Origin: Luteolibacter pohnpeiensis
GTDB taxonomy: Bacteria; Verrucomicrobiota; Verrucomicrobiia; Verrucomicrobiales; Akkermansiaceae
DNA length: 64,000 nt
Assembly: GCF_016595435.1 (NCBI RefSeq)
Contig: NZ_JAENIJ010000001.1
Span: 186,001 to 250,000 of the forward strand
Direction of reading: 5' to 3'
Part shown: one piece after another, positions 6,380-62,841 of the stretch
How positions within the stretch are numbered: the first letter of the stretch is position 1
How the letters are laid out: every line of letters begins with the position of its first letter
Program-made: the position numbers and the translations under genes
Notes under the pieces: generated by a model
Database searches by the model: none
What the model saw: only the letters and a program-made list of their open reading frames with translations
Told to the model about the DNA's origin: nothing

Positions 6380-6982
6380 TTAGCCACGATTCGCGATCCC
6401 GGCGGCCAGCAGTTTATCGACGTGCTTTGCCAAAAGATCGGCTTCGAGATTTACCGGTTGGCCGGATTTGGCGGCGCGCAGGTGAGTGTGATCCCACGTG
6501 TGCGGGGTGATCCAGAAAACCGCCGAGTTCGGCAGAAGCTCGGCGATGGTCAGAGAGATCCCATCGATCGCCAGTGAGCCTTTGTCGATGCAGAGGCGGT
6601 GGATTTCGGGGGGGAGGCTGATTTCCAGTCGGTGATCGTTTCCGCTGGGTTCGATGGAGGCGATGCTGCCGGTCGCATCGACGTGGCCTTGGACGAAATG
6701 CCCGCCAAGCCGATCGCCAACACGGAGTGCTCGCTCCAGATTGACCACGGAACCGGTGGTTAGATGACCGAGGGAGGTGACTTTCAAAGTCTGGGCTAAC
6801 AAGTCAAACGCGACTCCTGTTTCTTCGAACGAGGAGACTGTGAGGCAGCAGCCATTGACCGCGACCGAGTCTCCCAAGGCTAGTTCCTGGGAAAACGGGA
6901 TATCCAGAGTGAGTTTGGCTTGGTCGCCCAGTGATACGAGACTGAGAACGCGGCCGGTGGCTTCGACAAGACCGGTGAACAT
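6380..6982 (-). CDS. ribE: Riboflavin synthase, alpha subunit
   Basis: Catalyses dismutation of two 6,7-dimethyl-8-ribityllumazine molecules into riboflavin and the pyrimidine precursor. The 200-residue length and the two tandem lumazine-binding barrels are typical. Barrel 1 starts MFTGLVEATGRVLSL and contains VNGCCLTV. Barrel 2 starts near residue 98 with GHFVQGHVDATGSI and contains SLAIDGISLTI. NLERALRVGDRLGGH joins the barrels. No FMN riboswitch was seen upstream: the preceding gene ends only 5 nt away, so ribE is probably transcribed with the antiporter gene. No other rib gene is in the window. Confidence 0.96.
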   Translation of the reverse strand: MFTGLVEATGRVLSLVSLGDQAKLTLDIPFSQELALGDSVAVNGCCLTVSSFEETGVAFDLLAQTLKVTSLGHLTTGSVVNLERALRVGDRLGGHFVQGHVDATGSIASIEPSGNDHRLEISLPPEIHRLCIDKGSLAIDGISLTIAELLPNSAVFWITPHTWDHTHLRAAKSGQPVNLEADLLAKHVDKLLAAGIANRG

Positions 6983-6987
6983 GGCAA

Positions 6988-8640
6988 TTACGGGTGTTCG
7001 GGCTGAAGGTTTTTAACCTCCGGAGTAGGGGGTTCAGCCGTAGCACTGGTTTCGTGCGTGGCTTCCATGCCCTCGACTGGCTCGAACATTTTGTCAATGC
7101 CCCGGTCTGGGAAGAACATCATGCAGGTGGCCACCAGAATGGTAGGGATCAGGGCACCGAGCATCAGTTTTCCGGGGGATACACCATCACCGAAGAAACG
7201 GCCGAGCAAGGCCTGTCCGGCAGGGTTCGGAGCATTGGCGATGACCGTGAGGCCACCACCGGTGACGGCACCCGCGAGCACCGCGTATTTCAAGTGGGGC
7301 GAAAGCCCTTCCACCTGGCTGGCGAGGAAGGTGATGGCGGCGTTGTCGTTGAAAGAGGTGAGGATCGTGGAGCCGATAAAGAGTGGCCATTCCTTCAGGC
7401 TGGAAATGATCGGGGCAAGCCACCAGCCCTGCAGTCCACCGTGGATCACCAGACCGCCCAAGAAGAAACCGACCAAAATGGGGCCGCGCAGATTGATGTC
7501 GTGTTGGTGGTGCGCCGTGGCTTGGGAGAAGGCGAGGAAGAATAAGAAGCCGCCAATGAAGAGTGGTGGGTAGTGGGAAAACGCTACAGTCCACGCCATG
7601 AACGCGAGGTGAGTGATGATGACAAACGGAGGAACCCGGCGCTCCTTGACGATCAGATCGCCTTTGCCATCACCATCGTGATCACCCGCGCGTGATGCCA
7701 TTTGGCCGAGTTCCTTGCGGAAAAACAGGTAATAGATCGTGCTGGAAACCACGATGGAGAAGACTGCTTTGTCACCGTAGTGCAAAAGCATCTCAAAGGT
7801 GGTAAGACCCCACTTTTGCGCGACCATCAGAACAGGCGGAGCGGCAAAGTTGGTCAGAACTCCACCTACGGAAATGTTCACAAAGAGCAGACCGAGAGTG
7901 GCATAGGCGAACTTTGGAGATGGCTTGAGGCTGTAGAACTTTTTCGCCAGCAGCATGGCTGCGATGGTCATGGCTCCTGGCTCCGTGATGAATGAGCCGA
8001 GAAGCGGGGCGACGATCATGATGGAGAGCCACCAGGCCGCAGGAGTTTGTTTGCCGATCCGGGCGAATCCACTGAGGCAGGATTCAGCGAAACGCAGGAT
8101 GGGGCGGGTGGAGGCCAGCGCCATGATGATGATGACGAATAGGGGTTCGGTGTAATTGACCCCCATGAAGTAAGCCTTCACCGTATTGAGATCGTAGTAG
8201 CCAAACATCGCGACGATCAGGACGAGCACCCAGATGCCGAAGATGGCTTCCACCTCGCCTAGGAAATGCAGGGCGGTGGCCTTGAAACTGACCATATCTC
8301 CCGCTACCGCCGCTTCTCCTTCTGCGGCTTTGAGCCGGCGAATCTTCGCATCATGCTCGTGTTGCACGTGATGCGCGCGCTTGGTGATCGGAATCGCGAA
8401 GAAAGTGTGGACGATGGCGAGCAGGAAAATGATCGTTGCGACTAACAGAAACGGCTGTTCCTTGGCACGGAAGGCGAGGCGTTCCCCGATGCTATCCAGG
8501 CCTTTGGCTTTTTCCAACTCATTGAAGTGACTCATTTCTGTCACGAAGGCCGGCTCAGCAAGATGAGATTCGGCTGCCCGGACCGGTGAGTGGAACGTGA
8601 GAAAGAGAGTGGCGAGGAGCAGGAGAAAGCGTTTCGTCAT
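6988..8640 (-). CDS. Putative Na+/H+ antiporter (PF07399-like)
   Basis: 550-residue inner-membrane carrier. A signal-like N-terminus (KRFLLLLATLFLTFHSPVRA) precedes a short periplasmic stretch and about 12 membrane helices. Conserved-looking stretches are PLLGSFITEPGAMTIAAMLL, NISVGGVLTNFAAPPVLMVA, STILTSFNDNAAITFLAS and GGGLTVIANAPNPAGQALL. Together they match the putative Na+/H+ antiporter family found in Verrucomicrobiota and Chlamydiae and resemble arsenite/NhaD-type carriers. A His-rich cytoplasmic loop (RAHHVQHEHDAKIRRL) lies near residue 95. A D/G-rich loop (AGDHDGDGKGDL) near residue 320 looks like a calcium-type loop. The ion specificity is inferred only from the family. Confidence 0.85.
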   Translation of the reverse strand: MTKRFLLLLATLFLTFHSPVRAAESHLAEPAFVTEMSHFNELEKAKGLDSIGERLAFRAKEQPFLLVATIIFLLAIVHTFFAIPITKRAHHVQHEHDAKIRRLKAAEGEAAVAGDMVSFKATALHFLGEVEAIFGIWVLVLIVAMFGYYDLNTVKAYFMGVNYTEPLFVIIIMALASTRPILRFAESCLSGFARIGKQTPAAWWLSIMIVAPLLGSFITEPGAMTIAAMLLAKKFYSLKPSPKFAYATLGLLFVNISVGGVLTNFAAPPVLMVAQKWGLTTFEMLLHYGDKAVFSIVVSSTIYYLFFRKELGQMASRAGDHDGDGKGDLIVKERRVPPFVIITHLAFMAWTVAFSHYPPLFIGGFLFFLAFSQATAHHQHDINLRGPILVGFFLGGLVIHGGLQGWWLAPIISSLKEWPLFIGSTILTSFNDNAAITFLASQVEGLSPHLKYAVLAGAVTGGGLTVIANAPNPAGQALLGRFFGDGVSPGKLMLGALIPTILVATCMMFFPDRGIDKMFEPVEGMEATHETSATAEPPTPEVKNLQPEHP

Positions 8641-54323: not shown

Positions 54324-57300
54324 ATGTATCGCTCCCTCAATCTAAACGAAGACCTCGCCCTGAAACAAGTCGTCACCGATCGCTTCGCGCTCACAGACCG
54401 CGGCTTCGCGTGGCGCGATGTGCTTGCCAAAGACAAAACCGTTGCCGTCCCGGACATCACCATCACCCGCGGCAATACCGACACGCAGTTCTCTCTCGCC
54501 GACGTGGCCGATGCAATCGGCGACTCGCTGGCCGACCTGCTGATCTCCCGCTCGGAAGATGAAAAATCGATCTTCTCGGATGTGAACCGCAAGTTCGTTT
54601 CCGATGTCGCGCACTCGGTCGCTTCGTTCCTCACGAACTCGCTTAAAGCCGATGGCCGCCTGCGCCTTTCCGAGGCCGATCTTTACCTGTTGATCGAAAA
54701 AGCTCTGGTCGAAAACGAAGCGCACGATGTCGCGAAGTCGCTGGCATTCCGCCGCTCGATGCAAAAAACCGGCGCGGTCGATGTCCACGTCGGCCCGCAC
54801 GCGCTGCCGGTCCGCTTGATCCGCCGCAATGGCAATGTCGTCCCTTGGTCGGAGACGAAAATCGAGATCGCGGTGCGCAAGGCGTTCCTCACCATCAAGG
54901 AAAATCCGGAGCCAGCCGTCGAGGTCGCCAAGGGCGTGACCGATCGCATCCGCCGCGGCGATTCGTCGTTTGTCCACATCGAGGACGTGCAGGACATGGT
55001 GCAGGAGGAGCTGATGCGCCAGGGCCACTACAAGGCCGCGACCCACTATGTGCGCTACCGCGATGAGCGCGCCCGCCTGCGCAAGGAAGAGGAGGAAAAT
55101 GCGGAGGACGTGAACCAGGAGTTCATGATCACCGTCACCACCGAGGACGGAAAATCCTCGTTCTGGGACGGCAGCGAGCTGCGCAAACGCATCGCCTACG
55201 CCATGATCGGCCTCGACATCGCCATGCCGGAATCGGAAATCGAACGCGAACTCCGCCGCTCGGTCGGGTCCGAAATTTCCGAGCGCGATCTGAAAAACAC
55301 GATCATCCTCAACGCCAAGGCACTGATCGAAAAGGACGCGGATTTCGCGAAGTTCGCCGGCCGTATCCTGCTTTCCTACATCTACGAGGAAGTCCTCGAC
55401 TGGAGCATTTCCAAGGACGGCATCGAGCAACTCCGCGCCGCCCACCAGGCCGCGTTCAAGAGCTACCTCAAGCACGGCGTCGCCATCAAGCGCCTGCACC
55501 CGGACCTGCTCGAGGCCTACAATCTGGACAAGCTGGCCGAGGCCTTCGACCCGACCGCCGACCTCGATTTTGACTACCTCGGCATTCAGACGATGTATGA
55601 CCGCTACCTCATCGTCGATAAAACCGGTGCCAAGCCGCGCCGCATCGAGACCCCGCAATTCTTCTGGATGCGCGTCGCCATGGGCTTGTTCAAGAAAGAG
55701 GAAAAGGACGCGGAAGGCTGGGTCATCCGGCTTTACAACCTCTACAAAGGCCGCCGTTTCTGCTCCTCCACGCCGACGCTTTTCAACTCGGGCACGCTCC
55801 ACAGCCAGCTCTCGTCCTGCTACCTCTACAAAGTCGACGACTCGATCGAATCGATCATGTATCGCGGCATCGCCGAAAACGCATTCCTCTCGAAATGGGC
55901 CGGCGGCCTCGGTGGTTCCTGGACCGCCGTCCGCGGCACCGGTGGCTACATTCAAGGCACCAACGGCGAGTCCCAAGGCATCATCCCATTCCTCAAACTC
56001 CACAACGACCAGCTCGTCGCGGTGAATCAGGGCGGCAAGCGTCGCGGCTCCGGCTGCGCCTACCTGGAGTCCTGGCACAACGACATCGAGGACTTCCTTG
56101 AGCTGCGCAAAAACACCGGCGACGAACGCCGCCGCTGCCACGACATGAACACCGCCAACTGGGTGCCGGACTTGTTCATGAAGCGCATGGAAGAGCGGGG
56201 GACCTGGACCTTGTTCCGCTCCAATGAAGTGCCGGACTTGCACGATCTCTACGGTCAGGCATTCGAGCAACGCTACTGCGAATACGAAGCGCTGGCCGCC
56301 GAAGGCAAAATCTGGTCGCGCCAGATGCCCGCGCTCGAGCTGTGGAAATCGATGCTCAAGATGGTCTTCGAAACCGGCCACCCATGGATCACCTTCAAGG
56401 ACCCATGCAACGTCCGCAGCCCGCAGGACCACGTCGGCGTCATCCACTCGTCGAACCTCTGCACCGAGATCACGCTCAACACGTCCGATCAGGAAACCGC
56501 CGTCTGCAACCTCGGCTCGGTCGTGCTCGACACGCACATCACCCCCGATGGCGCGCTCGATCACGAGATGCTGAAGGAAACGATCACCGTCGCCATCCGC
56601 GCGCTCGATAACGTGATCGACATCAACTTCTACCCGACGCCTGCCGCGAAAACTGCGAACTCACGCCACCGCCCGATCGGCCTCGGCGTGATGGGCCTGC
56701 AGAACGCGCTCTACAAGCGCGGTCTCGCCTTCGCTTCGGACGCCGCGGTTGAGTTCAACGACGAGTTCATGGAAGCGATCGCCTACTATGCCTATAGTGC
56801 TTCCAGCGATCTCGCAGCCGAAGTCGGCACCTACTCGACCTACAAGGGCTCGAAGTGGGACCGTGGATTGCTGCCGCAGGACACGGTCGATCTCCTCGCC
56901 ACCGAGCGCGGCCGCAAGATCGATGTCCCGCGCGGCGGAAAAATGGACTGGTCCGTCGTTCGCGAAAAAATCGCCAAGCACGGCATGCGCAATTCCAACG
57001 TGCTCGCCATCGCGCCGACCGCCACCATTTCGAACATCATGGGCACCACCCCCTGCATCGAGCCGAACTACAAGAACCTCTACGTGAAGTCCAACCTCTC
57101 CGGCGACTTCATCGTTCTCAACGGCAACCTCGTCAACGACCTCAAAAAAGCCGGTCTCTGGAATCAGGAAATGCTCGATCAGCTCAAGTATTTCGACGGT
57201 GAGCTCGACGCCATCGACGACATCCCGGAAGCGATCAAGCAGAAGCACAAGACCGTCTTCGGCATCAGCCACGAATATATCGTCGACGCCGCCGCCCGCC

Positions 57301-57590
57301 GCCAGAAATGGATCGACCAAAGCCAGTCGGTGAACCTCTTCCTCGCCACCCCGGACATGAAGACCCTGTCTCACATGTATCGCCGTGCCTGGGACAAAGG
57401 CCTCAAAACCACCTACTACCTGCGCACCCTGCAAGCGTCCAACATCGAGAAATCCACCATCGACGTCCGCAAAGAGCAACGCGGCATTATGGCCACCCAA
57501 TCCACCAAACGCGAATTCACCGCCGAAGAAAAAATGGCCTGCTCCATCGATGCCATGATGAACGGCGGGGAATGCGAGGCTTGTCAGTGA
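54324..57590 (+). CDS. nrdA: Ribonucleoside-diphosphate reductase R1, multi-ATP-cone type
   Basis: 1088-residue catalytic subunit. Two clear ATP-cone allosteric domains lie at residues 162-252 (RLIRRNGNVVPWSETKIEIA) and 267-357 (DGSELRKRIAYAMIGLDIAM). Residues 55-145 look like a third, degenerate cone (LYLLIEKALVENEAHDVAKS). The catalytic barrel has LSSCYLYKVDDSIES (first active-site Cys), SNLCTEITLNT (Asn, thiyl Cys and Glu) and AVCNLGSV (the third Cys). The C-terminus ECEACQ supplies the redox-exchange Cys pair. Several ATP cones are typical of chlamydial-type NrdA and match the class Ic-like NrdB encoded upstream. The neighbouring reading frames on the opposite strand are shadows caused by high GC at third codon positions. 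Confidence 0.95.
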   Translation: MYRSLNLNEDLALKQVVTDRFALTDRGFAWRDVLAKDKTVAVPDITITRGNTDTQFSLADVADAIGDSLADLLISRSEDEKSIFSDVNRKFVSDVAHSVASFLTNSLKADGRLRLSEADLYLLIEKALVENEAHDVAKSLAFRRSMQKTGAVDVHVGPHALPVRLIRRNGNVVPWSETKIEIAVRKAFLTIKENPEPAVEVAKGVTDRIRRGDSSFVHIEDVQDMVQEELMRQGHYKAATHYVRYRDERARLRKEEEENAEDVNQEFMITVTTEDGKSSFWDGSELRKRIAYAMIGLDIAMPESEIERELRRSVGSEISERDLKNTIILNAKALIEKDADFAKFAGRILLSYIYEEVLDWSISKDGIEQLRAAHQAAFKSYLKHGVAIKRLHPDLLEAYNLDKLAEAFDPTADLDFDYLGIQTMYDRYLIVDKTGAKPRRIETPQFFWMRVAMGLFKKEEKDAEGWVIRLYNLYKGRRFCSSTPTLFNSGTLHSQLSSCYLYKVDDSIESIMYRGIAENAFLSKWAGGLGGSWTAVRGTGGYIQGTNGESQGIIPFLKLHNDQLVAVNQGGKRRGSGCAYLESWHNDIEDFLELRKNTGDERRRCHDMNTANWVPDLFMKRMEERGTWTLFRSNEVPDLHDLYGQAFEQRYCEYEALAAEGKIWSRQMPALELWKSMLKMVFETGHPWITFKDPCNVRSPQDHVGVIHSSNLCTEITLNTSDQETAVCNLGSVVLDTHITPDGALDHEMLKETITVAIRALDNVIDINFYPTPAAKTANSRHRPIGLGVMGLQNALYKRGLAFASDAAVEFNDEFMEAIAYYAYSASSDLAAEVGTYSTYKGSKWDRGLLPQDTVDLLATERGRKIDVPRGGKMDWSVVREKIAKHGMRNSNVLAIAPTATISNIMGTTPCIEPNYKNLYVKSNLSGDFIVLNGNLVNDLKKAGLWNQEMLDQLKYFDGELDAIDDIPEAIKQKHKTVFGISHEYIVDAAARRQKWIDQSQSVNLFLATPDMKTLSHMYRRAWDKGLKTTYYLRTLQASNIEKSTIDVRKEQRGIMATQSTKREFTAEEKMACSIDAMMNGGECEACQ

Positions 57591-57664: not shown

Positions 57665-59119
57665 TTGAGCACGACATGTCGCCTTCTTGAATCACACTTC
57701 GAAACTCTCCGCCACCGACGCATCAAAAAAGCGCTGGCTTACTTAGGAACGCAAATGCCGGAACTCGATTCAGCCACCGTCGATAAACTTGCCGATACTG
57801 CAGAAATGTTTCTAGCGGACTGGGGAGAAGGCTTTTCATTCCGTCGCAAACCAATCGGCGTGGGTGCCACGGCCGCTGTATTTGAAGTCTCAAAGAAGAA
57901 AGCAAAATATGCGCTGAAAATTTACAGTGAGCGTCTCTACACTGGCGAAAAATCGACAGCACAACTTCATCGTACAAAACTACAGGAAAAATTAATTGGG
58001 CATGATTGCAAAAGCCTAGTCACAATTCAGTCGATCCAGCTTTATAAATCCTCTTGCATATGCCTAATGGAGTATTTGCCTTGGGATACTCTAAAGAAAT
58101 GTTTGGCTAAAATCCCCGAGGACAAAATTCAGATCCTGGTGGATCAGTTGATCGATGTGATTGATTACTTAAAATCTGTCAACTTGATACACAGGGACAT
58201 TAAACCAGAAAACATATTGATCTCCCCGGATTTCTGCTCTCTAAAAGTTGTCGACATAGGTGTAGTTCGAGAGATTTCGGGAGCGGAAGATAGAATCGAT
58301 GGAACTGACACAGGAAAACTAAGGCCGTTTCTCGCAACTGCGCAGTATAGCCCTCCTGAATATCTATTTCGCACTTTCGAACCCTCGGAAGATTTATGGA
58401 ACGCCGTAAATATATACCAAATTGGTGCAATAGTGCACGACATGATCGTTCAAAAACCACTTTTTGACGAAGAAGTCCATTCGGGTAATCGATATAAATT
58501 GGCGCTTGCGGTATTAAGAAGTAAACCCGTTCTTGGGGCGGCGGCGAAAAGTCGTGAGTCGCGCCTCGCGGCAATTGCAGAATTAGCACTAATAAAAGAT
58601 CCAGTATTAAGAAATGATCTCGTCAAAATAAGTGATTTCAGAACTCCAAAATCAGAACGTGCATCAGAAGCACTGGCCGGAATTCTTGGGAAAATTAGTA
58701 TCAATGCCAAACATCAATCGAAACTCAATGAACTAATCGAGGAAAAGGAAAGGTATTGCTCCCAAAAAATTGAAACAATCGTTGCTGCAACGATTGCGAG
58801 TATCCACTCCAATTTTGAGCATTCTTTGAAATGCAATCGACAGAAATCGAAAAGCACATTGCACCGACAAGTCTTCCAAATTAAGCTGCCTGCACGACAG
58901 ATTAAAGAGAGCTTTTTTCTCGAATTCGATGAGATCGTAGACCCTACTCTTGATGAAATAAACGTCATATTAGGTCGAGAACACGGCAGCACTACCATAA
59001 CAAAAATTGTTGGCACCATGTCTTCTGAATCGGATTTACTTGAACCTGGTATTATGACTCATGCGTTTGAGGCTATTTGCGAGCAATTGAAAGCGAACAT
59101 CGATTATAACGGCTTATGA
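57665..59119 (+). CDS. Serine/threonine protein kinase, first gene of a four-gene block
   Basis: 484 residues counted from TTG at 57665; the next in-frame ATG is at 57755, and the true start is uncertain. The kinase domain spans about 58-330. It has the glycine loop IGVGATAAVF (64-73), Lys85 in YALKIY, the catalytic loop HRDIKPEN (176-183, D178) and a metal-binding Asp in VDIGVVRE (DIG replaces DFG, D197). The C-terminal 150 residues are helical without a recognised domain and no membrane helix, so the kinase is cytoplasmic, unlike PknB-type sensors. The stop overlaps the start of the helicase gene by 4 nt. The block is visibly A/T-richer than nrdA beside it, which suggests acquisition by transfer. 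A defence or stress role is inference from context. Confidence 0.88.
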   Translation: MSTTCRLLESHFETLRHRRIKKALAYLGTQMPELDSATVDKLADTAEMFLADWGEGFSFRRKPIGVGATAAVFEVSKKKAKYALKIYSERLYTGEKSTAQLHRTKLQEKLIGHDCKSLVTIQSIQLYKSSCICLMEYLPWDTLKKCLAKIPEDKIQILVDQLIDVIDYLKSVNLIHRDIKPENILISPDFCSLKVVDIGVVREISGAEDRIDGTDTGKLRPFLATAQYSPPEYLFRTFEPSEDLWNAVNIYQIGAIVHDMIVQKPLFDEEVHSGNRYKLALAVLRSKPVLGAAAKSRESRLAAIAELALIKDPVLRNDLVKISDFRTPKSERASEALAGILGKISINAKHQSKLNELIEEKERYCSQKIETIVAATIASIHSNFEHSLKCNRQKSKSTLHRQVFQIKLPARQIKESFFLEFDEIVDPTLDEINVILGREHGSTTITKIVGTMSSESDLLEPGIMTHAFEAICEQLKANIDYNGL

Positions 59120-60300
59120 AGAACACTTGGTGGACTAACCTCGAAGACTTGGATGTGGATCAGGAAAAGGTTTTAGACCTTCCTCCGTCGGGCAAGCATG
59201 TCATTTTCGGACCCCCAGGCTGTGGCAAAACCAACCTATTACTTCTTCGCGCTAAATATTTATATGGGAAAGAGGGATTTAAGAACATTCTTTTTCTTAC
59301 CTACACAGGATGTTTGGCCGACTTTATTAGATCTGGATTGAATGATCAGAAATTTTTCAAGCCTGATCAGGTTCAGACGTTTTGGTCATGGGCAAGATCG
59401 CATATCTCAACCTATTATCCGCAAGGCCTCGCCGATTTTGAGTCGCTTTTTATTAAAAATAAAGACAAGAAGATTGAGAACAGCAAAGATAACAAAGAAC
59501 GGAAGAATAAAATTTTGGTCGAGCTCCTGGAAAGTGCCTACGCCAAAGCGCCGACTCACATCCTCTACGACGCTGTCTTTATTGATGAAGCTCAAGATTT
59601 GACAAAAGAGCAGATAGTAGAGTTGTCACGGCTCGCTCCGGTAGTAACGATTGCCGGTGATGATCGTCAGGGTTTATATGGAATGGACGGACTATCTGTT
59701 CAGGGTTTTAAATCTATAACGTTGGAATACCATTACAGGATTGGCAAAAGAATATGTGAAGTGGCGGATAAGATTCTTCCGCCCAAAGATGGCAATAACT
59801 CACTTTTGGATTATTGCTTATATTCTGAAGAGAAGAATGCGTCTGACGCTGATATTTTCTCACATGCAACAAGGAATGACCAGTATCGCGCGATACTTGA
59901 TAGACTGCAGACCCAACTTAGAGCCTTTCCTGATGAACTATTAGGAGTGATTCTTCCTACAAACGGCATGATCGAGGAGTTTAAGTCCTACCTTAAAGAT
60001 AGTGAATTTTTTGAGATCACATCCTTTCATTCGGACGAAGGAGTAAATAATTCATTTCGTTCGGATCGACCGATTCATGTGCTGACTATTCATGCGGCAA
60101 AAGGGACAGAATTTCGTGCGGTTCATATTGCTGGCGGAGAGGAAATAAAATTCCCGATGAACCGGCGCGAAGTGTCATTTACAGCAATCACAAGAGCAAA
60201 AACTTCATTATCACTTCATTACAGTGGACAGGTCATGCCCTTTATTGCCAGTGCCTTTGCGAAGACGAGCACAATCACCAAGAAGGATCTATTCTCATGA
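59116..60300 (+). CDS. Minimal UvrD-like superfamily 1 helicase/ATPase
   Basis: 394 residues, about half the size of UvrD or PcrA. The ordered SF1 motifs are Walker A GPPGCGKT (32-39), Walker B FIDEAQDLT (155-163), motif III GDDRQGLYG (181-189), motif IV-like LEYHYRIGKRI (203-213), motif V LTIHAAKGTEF (323-333) and motif VI FTAITRAKTSL (354-364). The accessory 1B and 2B subdomains seem reduced to a short charged insert (KNKDKKIENSKDNKERKNK). Unwinding therefore may be weak; an ATP-driven nucleic acid translocase or switch is possible. Four-nt overlaps at both ends couple it to the kinase and to the next gene. Small UvrD-like proteins occur in phage defence systems such as Gabija (GajB), but no Gabija nuclease partner is here. 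Confidence 0.88.
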   Translation: MKNTWWTNLEDLDVDQEKVLDLPPSGKHVIFGPPGCGKTNLLLLRAKYLYGKEGFKNILFLTYTGCLADFIRSGLNDQKFFKPDQVQTFWSWARSHISTYYPQGLADFESLFIKNKDKKIENSKDNKERKNKILVELLESAYAKAPTHILYDAVFIDEAQDLTKEQIVELSRLAPVVTIAGDDRQGLYGMDGLSVQGFKSITLEYHYRIGKRICEVADKILPPKDGNNSLLDYCLYSEEKNASDADIFSHATRNDQYRAILDRLQTQLRAFPDELLGVILPTNGMIEEFKSYLKDSEFFEITSFHSDEGVNNSFRSDRPIHVLTIHAAKGTEFRAVHIAGGEEIKFPMNRREVSFTAITRAKTSLSLHYSGQVMPFIASAFAKTSTITKKDLFS

Positions 60301-61661
60301 AATGGGACAATTATAGATGGGTGGAAATTTCGCGATCTGAACTATTGTCATTTATTTTCAGTCGCGATAGATCGCATAGAACTAGCTCACCTCCAAAAAG
60401 TAGGAGGCTTTTAGCCGGTTTCGAAGGATACCACTCTAATTCGGAAGAGCGCCCCGAGGTCCTTGTCATTGAAGATGAAGATGCAGAGGATTTGATGGCG
60501 TGGCTCTATGCATTCGCTGCGGACTTCATGCCTCTTAGCATGCATTTTCAAGTAGTGCTCGCCTCTGATTTTGACGCTATAATGCGGACGGACTCTTTTT
60601 CGAATCCGATTTTCGAACCTGTATGGGCCTCAATGATTTTGGGTGAATTCATGATGCGTGGCCGGGGTAGTAAAGTTCTTAAAGATTTTTATATATCGTG
60701 GATTGAAACGTCCTGCAGCTACTCCCTTTTAGCTGCACTGCAAGTTTATGGTGATAATAAACTGATATATGACACATTTATCGGTCGGCTTAGACGACTC
60801 AAGGCGAACGAGCAACTGGGTTTTCCTGAGCTTCGGCTTGAGACACTTGAAGTAGCTTGGAAAGTCTGTATTGATTTACCTGATCGCGCATATCAATTTG
60901 AACGCGAAGATGAATTTTTGTTTGTTCAAAGGCTTTTCCATTTGCTGGAGAGCTCCGCGAATAGACAATTTAGCCATGAGTTTCTTGATTTGCTCTATTC
61001 CTCCTATTTTAAATCAGATTCCGTGGAGCGTCGGCTCACAGGTTTCGACCAAGTGGTTCGAAAGTGCTCCGATCAAAATCTCTCGGACCAAACGGAAGTG
61101 GGGTTTTATTTAGGAGCGGCGGCGTTCCTTGTTGGAAGGGGAACTTCCCATCTTGGACTTATTGACCGTCCTGCTTCCAGCTTTCCGTCCGCCTACCTTT
61201 GGTTTTCGATTCTAGCAGGCCTTTGTGGGAAAAATTCATGGGATCCACGTTGGTTCGAGCTAATTAGACGAATAACACCTTTTTTGCGTAGTAAGAGACT
61301 TGAGGGGGATAAACCTGCTGACCTTTGCTGGGTGGAATTTTCTGCTATGGAAAGGAGTAGAGAATCGTTGTCATTCGCTAAGGATATAGTTCGTATTTTT
61401 CCTAGTTCTCTTGTCTTGGAATTGATTCCGAACGTTCATTTCCAAATTCGATTGGCGCGCGAGTCTGCAGATAGTGAGAGGTCGACAACAGGAGGTTCTC
61501 CCACGAAAGGTTCAAACCGGGAGCTAATTCTTCAGATAGAAAGTTTGTTGAAGAGGTTGACGAAAGGTCTTGATACGCAGTCGTCTCAAATCCCTGAGCA
61601 ACCTGAACTTAAACTTATTACGGAGGAAAAATCGAATCGGAAGAAGCGATCATCAGATTGA
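60297..61661 (+). CDS. Unrecognised 454-residue protein of the kinase-helicase block
   Basis: No family was recognised. The protein is soluble, largely helical, and rich in aromatic residues (SMHFQVVLASDFDAIM, FEPVWASMILGEFMMRGRG, FYLGAAAFLVGRGTSHLGL). It has no signal peptide or membrane helix. A helical-repeat (HEAT or TPR-like) scaffold is a reasonable guess for residues 120-380. The C-terminal 60 residues are polar and end in a basic cluster (KSNRKKRSSD). Its start overlaps the helicase stop by 4 nt (ATGA), so it must be translated with it. This coupling, rather than its sequence, is the reason to treat it as a component of one system. Confidence 0.7.
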   Translation: MKWDNYRWVEISRSELLSFIFSRDRSHRTSSPPKSRRLLAGFEGYHSNSEERPEVLVIEDEDAEDLMAWLYAFAADFMPLSMHFQVVLASDFDAIMRTDSFSNPIFEPVWASMILGEFMMRGRGSKVLKDFYISWIETSCSYSLLAALQVYGDNKLIYDTFIGRLRRLKANEQLGFPELRLETLEVAWKVCIDLPDRAYQFEREDEFLFVQRLFHLLESSANRQFSHEFLDLLYSSYFKSDSVERRLTGFDQVVRKCSDQNLSDQTEVGFYLGAAAFLVGRGTSHLGLIDRPASSFPSAYLWFSILAGLCGKNSWDPRWFELIRRITPFLRSKRLEGDKPADLCWVEFSAMERSRESLSFAKDIVRIFPSSLVLELIPNVHFQIRLARESADSERSTTGGSPTKGSNRELILQIESLLKRLTKGLDTQSSQIPEQPELKLITEEKSNRKKRSSD

Positions 61662-61686
61662 TGATACCTTAACTTGTAAGTTAACG

Positions 61687-62181
61687 ATGAAGAAAATTGT
61701 AGATCTAGGGTGCTCTCACTACATAGCCCATTTCTCGGATCCGCTATCCGCTCGATATTTGTGGCGCGGTTTTAAGAAGAAAAACTTTCATGGGATACAC
61801 AAACTTGGCCCAGTTGTTGGGCGACAACCGCGCAACAATTCCCCCCTTGTTCATCATACTGCAGACACCTGGTTTCTTGATAATTTCGGGATTAGGTATC
61901 GTTCAGAATCGCTATTTTGCACTGGTGATAAAACGATTGCGTCCCACTACGGGAATGTTTATCCAATTGTCCCTCAGAACGATCATCGGTTTTGCTGGAG
62001 TCCAATAATTAGGGATCTTTTTGCGGAGGTGGAGCTTAACTTCATAAATCCAAAAGACACCAATTCAATCGTTACACTGCTTGAGGGTGCATCCTATACT
62101 GAGGCAAATCTCTCTGATGCCTTGATAAAAGGGCACGAAATAATGGTTAATGCACCAGGATTTTTTATTTTGGCTGATTAG
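61687..62181 (+). CDS. Unrecognised 164-residue protein, last gene of the block
   Basis: Starts at the ATG at 61687, 25 nt after the previous stop; a longer frame back to 61570 overlaps that gene and lacks the same character. The segment FLDNFGIRYRSESLFCTGD, then ASHYGNVYPIVPQNDHRFCW and SPIIRDLF resembles a pattern I recall from uncharacterised phage and bacterial proteins (a W-S-P-x-x-x-D-L ending after an RS-x-x-x-F-x-TGD block). ADP-ribosyltransferase-like folds have been a guess for such sequences, but I cannot confirm it. No membrane segment is present. It is the natural candidate for an effector of the block, and this is only inference. Confidence 0.62.
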   Translation: MKKIVDLGCSHYIAHFSDPLSARYLWRGFKKKNFHGIHKLGPVVGRQPRNNSPLVHHTADTWFLDNFGIRYRSESLFCTGDKTIASHYGNVYPIVPQNDHRFCWSPIIRDLFAEVELNFINPKDTNSIVTLLEGASYTEANLSDALIKGHEIMVNAPGFFILAD

Positions 62182-62841
62182 CAGTTCTTAATGGATCGGT
62201 GTAGAAAACTTTGTGTTTTAGTAGGTTCAGATATGGGTTAGGCGGGCTAGAGCTTTACTCCAGGGAGCTTCTTGATAGAGCCAGCTGCGTAGCCATCGCA
62301 AATATCGAACGGTGCTCTGAGTGGCCCGCTGAAAGACTTGGTTCATGAAGTTATTCGCTTGCTGGTAGGTTCGCCTTCGCGGTTCTTGCGTGTTTTTTGT
62401 CTGCGGTGTTTTTTCCTGGTTTCGACTTTGTCATCGATTCCTTCTGCGCATTGGATGGCTTGTTCAAATAGCAGGGTGAGGTTGTGAGACAGGCATTGAA
62501 ATAAGGCTTGGGCTTCTTTTGCAGTTTGGCTGCTGGCCCAGGATTTGGTTTCCGCCATTTTGTTTTTGAATGGCTCAAAAACCTTTTCATGCTCCTCGCC
62601 GGTCGCACTCTTTCAGAGCACGTCGCGTTCGCTCCTGTCCATGTCGCTCCGCTCCATTCGATATCTGCGATGTTTGTAGCCTAATGCGATGGTCCAAGCG
62701 GGAAGTTGTATTTCATTTGTTAGATAAGTGTAAATTTTTCCCTCACTAGGATCATGGCGAAGGGGTAGGCATTTAAAATAGGCCTTTTATAATATAATGA
62801 ATCATCGTAGCCGTACCGGATGCTTTGCACTTGATTCAGGT
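62182..62841. other. Gap between the kinase-helicase block and the beta-strand-repeat gene
   Basis: 660 bp that hold the transposase remnant (62220-62608) and a leader region. At 62788-62798 two overlapping TATAAT-like hexamers occur about 45 bp before the next gene, a possible -10 element, but no good -35 sequence was seen at the right spacing. Confidence 0.4.
62220..62608 (-). pseudogene. Decayed transposase C-terminal fragment (IS4-like)
   Basis: Minus-strand remnant readable in two frames. The first part (MAETKSWASSQTAKEAQALF, QCLSHNLTLLFEQAIQ) is followed by a basic region and a stop near 62343. A shifted frame then reads FMNQVFQRATQSTVRYLRWL and RSWLYQEAPWSKALARL. These two blocks are what I would expect at the C-terminus of IS4-type transposases. 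The N-terminal catalytic part is missing, the frame is broken, and no terminal inverted repeats were found. It marks the right side of the kinase-helicase block. Confidence 0.5.

Follow-up and report, generated by a model that had tools for sequence, protein, structure and literature searches.

Do the four closely spaced genes that follow nrdA in Luteolibacter pohnpeiensis form a system of defence against phages, and do all of them belong to it? An earlier note on the window, by which we mean the whole stretch of 64,000 nucleotides analysed, had proposed an undescribed four-gene defence system. Our comparisons bear out the proposal for three of the genes (K, U and C), but not for a system of four parts, since the last gene (D) joins the trio in the window only. 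K-U-C is a well-supported candidate for a defence module of three genes, to which an accessory ART-like gene has been added. The features discussed are these.

54324-57590, plus strand: nrdA, the upstream anchor of a variable slot, kept in relatives.
57755-59119, plus strand: K, a Ser/Thr kinase (Pfam Pkinase, E 9e-27) with orthologues; the reading frame is open to a TTG at 57665.
59116-60300, plus strand: U, a compact UvrD-like SF1 ATPase of 394 aa (Pfam UvrD_C and UvrD-helicase).
60297-61661, plus strand: C, 454 aa, mostly helical, of no recognised family.
61687-62181, plus strand: D, 164 aa, matching phrog_11975 (E 8e-24), with a predicted ADP-ribosyltransferase-like fold.
62191-62558, no strand assigned: a decayed repeat that closes the segment on its downstream side; the host genome holds 23 matches to it, itself counted, most of them partial.

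The described layout of a kinase, a UvrD-like ATPase and two unrecognised proteins is present in full. The plus-strand reading frames run from 57665 to 59119, 59116 to 60300, 60297 to 61661 and 61687 to 62181; ATGA overlaps at 59116-59119 and 60297-60300 couple the first gene to the second and the second to the third, and 25 nt separate the third from the fourth. The segment is A/T-richer, as had been stated, with a GC content of 0.41-0.47 over 57750-62500 versus 0.56-0.63 in nrdA and beyond 63000. Two details are to be revised. The kinase had been started at 57665, but that TTG is probably unused: ATG 57755 is preceded by AGGA, and the protein that it would begin, MPELDSATV, lines up with the first residues of its closest orthologue, MPALDQKTI. 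Of the two borders, nrdA stands, while the supposed decayed transposase is the repeat remnant listed above.

The kinase and helicase motifs had been called intact; they are, and the orthologues keep them as well. K, a cytoplasmic Ser/Thr protein kinase extended at its C-terminus by about 150 aa, preserves K85, the HRD at 176-178 and the DxG at 197-199 (numbered from the TTG), and its orthologues in the six other complete loci share 31-40% identity across the matched part. U carries Walker A K38, DEAQD at 157-161 and motif VI R360. Its relatives among known structures, in a search of the PDB, are UvrD/PcrA, HelD and GajB; the motor motifs are present, and at 394 aa the protein probably has no room for the full accessory domains of UvrD. 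C matches nothing in Pfam, NCBIfam or PADLOC (2.0.0) at E<=1, and D has no match of useful strength in the same three collections. Structure prediction, which had been proposed for both proteins, was informative for D (pLDDT 93) and poor for C (pLDDT 54), and we discarded the fold matches of the C model because a model of that quality does not bear interpretation. Direct search of 99 genus and order relatives and of plasmids gave no other relative of P0003. A C profile made without the window matches residues 5-449 of the window protein (E 1e-41), which also aligns with the C of viral contig L104 at 26% identity over 473 columns (E 4e-39). By these comparisons C is diverged, at 15-35% between loci, yet homologous; it is a candidate scaffold or sensor.

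Is the trio a unit outside this genome? The order and strand of K-U-C are identical in seven complete loci: the window, a Cupriavidus plasmid, a Rhizobium plasmid, an alphaproteobacterial genome (L099/L135) and the viral contigs L104, L105 and L106. Two further loci, L103 and L016, run off the ends of their contigs. A search of plasmids with U returned Cupriavidus pMTS3 and two near-identical Rhizobium leguminosarum plasmids, and in both lineages U is preceded by K and followed by a reading frame of 457-460 aa that the annotation cuts short. Scanning viral contigs for a P-loop DNA pattern, together with profile searches, added loci L103-L106, L016, L099 and L100. Across loci the genes overlap or are adjacent. 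The U proteins of the K-U-C loci, nine in all, group in a single clade with 100/100 support, L100 adjoining and the NERD-UvrDs lying apart. Moreover, K, U and C co-diverge: among the seven complete loci their pairwise distances correlate at 0.90 (K-U), 0.87 (U-C) and 0.80 (K-C), and no more than 8 of 3000 permutations gave values as high. L100 lacks a kinase: a different first gene is followed by a U that is fused to an additional stretch at its N-terminus, and then by C, so that K may be replaceable in the module.

It had been stated that single homologues in core genomes, without conserved order, would speak against a system; the orthologues keep their order instead, and the UvrD matches examined in genome contigs as possible single core-genome genes were NERD-UvrDs or distant genes, not orthologues. 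The module is rare, and our sample is accordingly small. With at most five candidates scored per genome, it was found in 1 of 378 genomes of the window's phylum, the window's own; U-C was found in 2 of 385 genomes in the class of G479, one with K and the other being L100, and in none of 369 in the class of G480. U was not found in phage GenBank records. Some other compact UvrD genes have a similar arrangement. Two genomes from the phylum of the window (L190, 766-4481, and L191, 4612-8270, both on the minus strand) have a compact UvrD, of 423 and 404 aa, that shares a 4-nt overlap with the end of a reading frame of 815 aa that by eye is Hsp70/DnaK-like, a pair that is possibly a sister module of K-U-C. 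At L098 (1465-3990, plus strand) a compact but distant UvrD of 355 aa, preceded by a 341-aa reading frame, overlaps by 4 nt a reading frame of at least 487 aa, in a layout resembling that of K-U-C.

The earlier note knew of no system with these parts, and the trio is indeed absent from PADLOC and from the literature searched; subscription papers and preprints lay mostly outside that literature, so the trio may have been described before. The text of DefensePredictor deals with other kinases only, not with K-U-C. The trio is akin to the kinase-based defences PD-T4-6, KKP and Mokosh, but it fails a defining feature of each. PD-T4-6, the best PADLOC match of K (E 1.6e-21 across the kinase domain), is a single-gene Ser/Thr kinase system that stands alone, whereas K has its own C-terminal extension and is accompanied by U and C in all complete loci. 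Mokosh combines a kinase and a helicase within one defence system, and the kinase region of MkoA is matched by K (9e-9); however, MkoA is one large polypeptide (1112 and 1607 aa in the PADLOC models), while K and U are separate proteins joined by a 4-nt overlap, and MkoA is absent from the 25 best matches of U. KKP is a prophage-borne Ser/Thr kinase defence module (PMC11341870) with two kinases and a phosphatase and without UvrD or C; the operon has a single kinase and no phosphatase match.

Other systems share single parts with the operon. K matches mad6 of MADS (3e-21), and the N-terminal part of U weakly matches mad8 (4.5e-8), but these matches are confined to the kinase domain and the P-loop region, and neither C nor D matches a MADS protein. 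MADS also needs a methylase and other mad genes, whereas the operon has no methylase and the gene upstream is nrdA. GajB of Gabija is likewise UvrD-like (profile E 4e-20; PDB GajB 1.5e-9), although this profile similarity to U is distant and GajB is longer (about 500 aa against 394). The OLD-type nuclease GajA is not among the listed matches of any of the four proteins, and the partners of U are a kinase and C. The best PADLOC match of U is the NERD+UvrD entry C3a187 (E 1e-23), but U lacks a NERD domain and NERD-UvrDs form a separate clade.

The location of the module supports a role in defence. Conserved order next to defence genes had been named as a check, and the seven complete loci prove to be phage-, plasmid- and defence-associated. 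One copy lies inside a Mu-like prophage (L105, beside a head maturation protease and a Mu F-like minor head protein) and two others lie beside lysis genes (L106, with an endolysin and a tail-completion, or neck, protein; L104, with an Rz-like spanin). L016 neighbours an integrase; its kinase lies in two frames at 6513-7990 (plus strand), by frameshift or assembly error. As phage structural or lysis genes surround or adjoin three of the loci, and an integrase adjoins one, the module might regulate its own prophage or plasmid, through lysogeny, superinfection or copy control, and defend only as a by-product, much as KKP has a regulatory side. We consider this rather unlikely, because there are plasmid and chromosomal copies without evident phage and because the neighbours of these copies are Hachiman, RmrTA, a toxin-antitoxin-like pair and a defence-rich slot. 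The Rhizobium copy adjoins Hachiman HamA/HamB (E 7e-131 and 0), and the Cupriavidus copy adjoins RmrT/RmrA. The HTH/RelE-like pair near K-U-C at L135 was judged by eye.

The slot is the one that the window itself occupies. Full-length relatives of nrdA are about 82-92% identical, whereas the 3' flank varies between them, and in the window, where this flank runs from 57591 onward, K-U-C is what follows nrdA. In genus relatives the same position holds AbiD (E 3e-68), SIR2, CHAT paired with PDC-S60, and GmrSD/NsnA (4e-62). Three of the genomes have C5-cytosine methylases there, and a type II REase and an unrelated kinase also occur. The 3' flank of nrdA (L167-L186 and the window) is a variable slot that often holds defence-type genes, with no evident defence gene in about 8 of 20 relatives, in a comparison confined to this slot. 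Loci L167, L173, L183 and L186 in this slot hold what by eye are toxin-antitoxin-like pairs. From the conserved order, the gene coupling and the co-divergence, together with these settings (prophages, plasmids, the Hachiman neighbour and the defence-rich slot), we regard it as moderately likely that K-U-C is a mobile three-gene module of anti-phage defence.

The fourth gene has a different history. All seven members of the D family that were scanned match phrog_11975. Relatives of D are multicopy in two phages, at nine places in Agrobacterium phage Atu_ph07 and at five in Salicola phage SCTP-2, and occur in many viral contigs; among predicted viral structures, too, D matches the jumbo-phage family. 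D is a member of this family, yet it is placed in a bacterial operon. One Atu_ph07 paralogue (L107, 13850-14938, plus strand) has an extra N-terminal domain that by eye is GNAT-like. The model of D (pTM 0.87; 26 sequences) predicts an ADP-ribosyltransferase-like fold. Against the PDB its TMq is 0.45 for 2aua, 0.36 for 2hw2, 0.35 for 7wr5 and 0.33 for 7wr3, although the best E is weak, at 0.09. The only entries above 0.3 are BC2332 (2aua), two of OspC3 and rifampin ADP-ribosyltransferase, the rest listed being at or below 0.18; BC2332 and OspC3 we take to be ART-like. Conservation in the family (R27 in 21 of 26 sequences, S75 in 24, E151 in 24; R46 and R72 invariant) suggests that R27, S75 and E151 may be catalytic residues of the R-S-E type. 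Several ARTs per jumbo phage have been reported, and ARTs are common in jumbo-phage groups 2 and 3 (PMC7824862).

Bacterial relatives of D are scarce. The D profile found none in 274 genomes of the class of G480, and weak phylum matches (L011 and L012) were dropped when the family profile failed to sustain them. Outside the window, the sole relative of D found in bacteria is carried by two Pantoea plasmids, where a protein kinase gene follows it immediately (L015, 7929-9458, plus strand, a two-gene unit of a D-family ART-like protein and then a protein kinase). It is this neighbour, together with the ART-like fold and the 25-nt operon spacing, that brings to mind a toxin-antitoxin-like unit in which D is a toxin that the kinase, or else C, holds in check until infection frees it. 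Such an arrangement appears quite improbable, given that D is missing from the other K-U-C loci, that the Pantoea kinase has no U and C partners and that relatives of D are mainly phage genes. D lies downstream of C in none of the other K-U-C loci examined, which places it outside the conserved core as an accessory gene. With the family multicopy in jumbo phages and a repeat remnant directly downstream, D may even be an unrelated, phage-derived passenger that adds nothing to K-U-C, a reading compatible with defence by the trio and one that deserves serious weight, although we lean against it. D shares the strand, the close spacing and the equally low GC of its neighbours and has an intact reading frame, and in Rhizobium the annotation places a short FRG-domain remnant after C, which suggests that add-ons make use of the fourth position. 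The ART-like fold makes a role as effector plausible.

Taken as a defence, K-U-C would probably be a new kinase-type system with an optional ART-like effector and an abortive action, in which sensing may fall to the ATPase, transmission to the kinase and execution to an effector. U would bind a nucleic-acid structure that arises as the phage replicates and, scaffolded by C, would release K; K would then phosphorylate one or more proteins of the cell or of the phage, halting growth or phage production. D would be an optional add-on in the operon, probably a second, NAD-dependent effector. Nucleic-acid sensing by a kinase has a bacterial precedent in CapK, an immune regulatory kinase that is activated by ssDNA (PMC13373217). 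A wider scheme, which we offer tentatively and hold to be doubtful, is that compact UvrD ATPases are exchangeable sensor switches whose partner sets the output (a kinase with C, the Hsp70-like proteins of L190 and L191, or the first gene of L100), the module in the window also driving an effector of a jumbo-phage ART-like family, in two stages of phosphorylation and ADP-ribosylation.

If the defence reading of K-U-C is true, it would be a kinase-based immune module in which control of the kinase lies with a UvrD-type ATPase and a partner of no recognised family, a signalling layout without description in the literature searched. A jumbo-phage enzyme family would be at work on the bacterial side. 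The genus-wide slot behind nrdA would, moreover, be a ready hunting ground for more defence genes.
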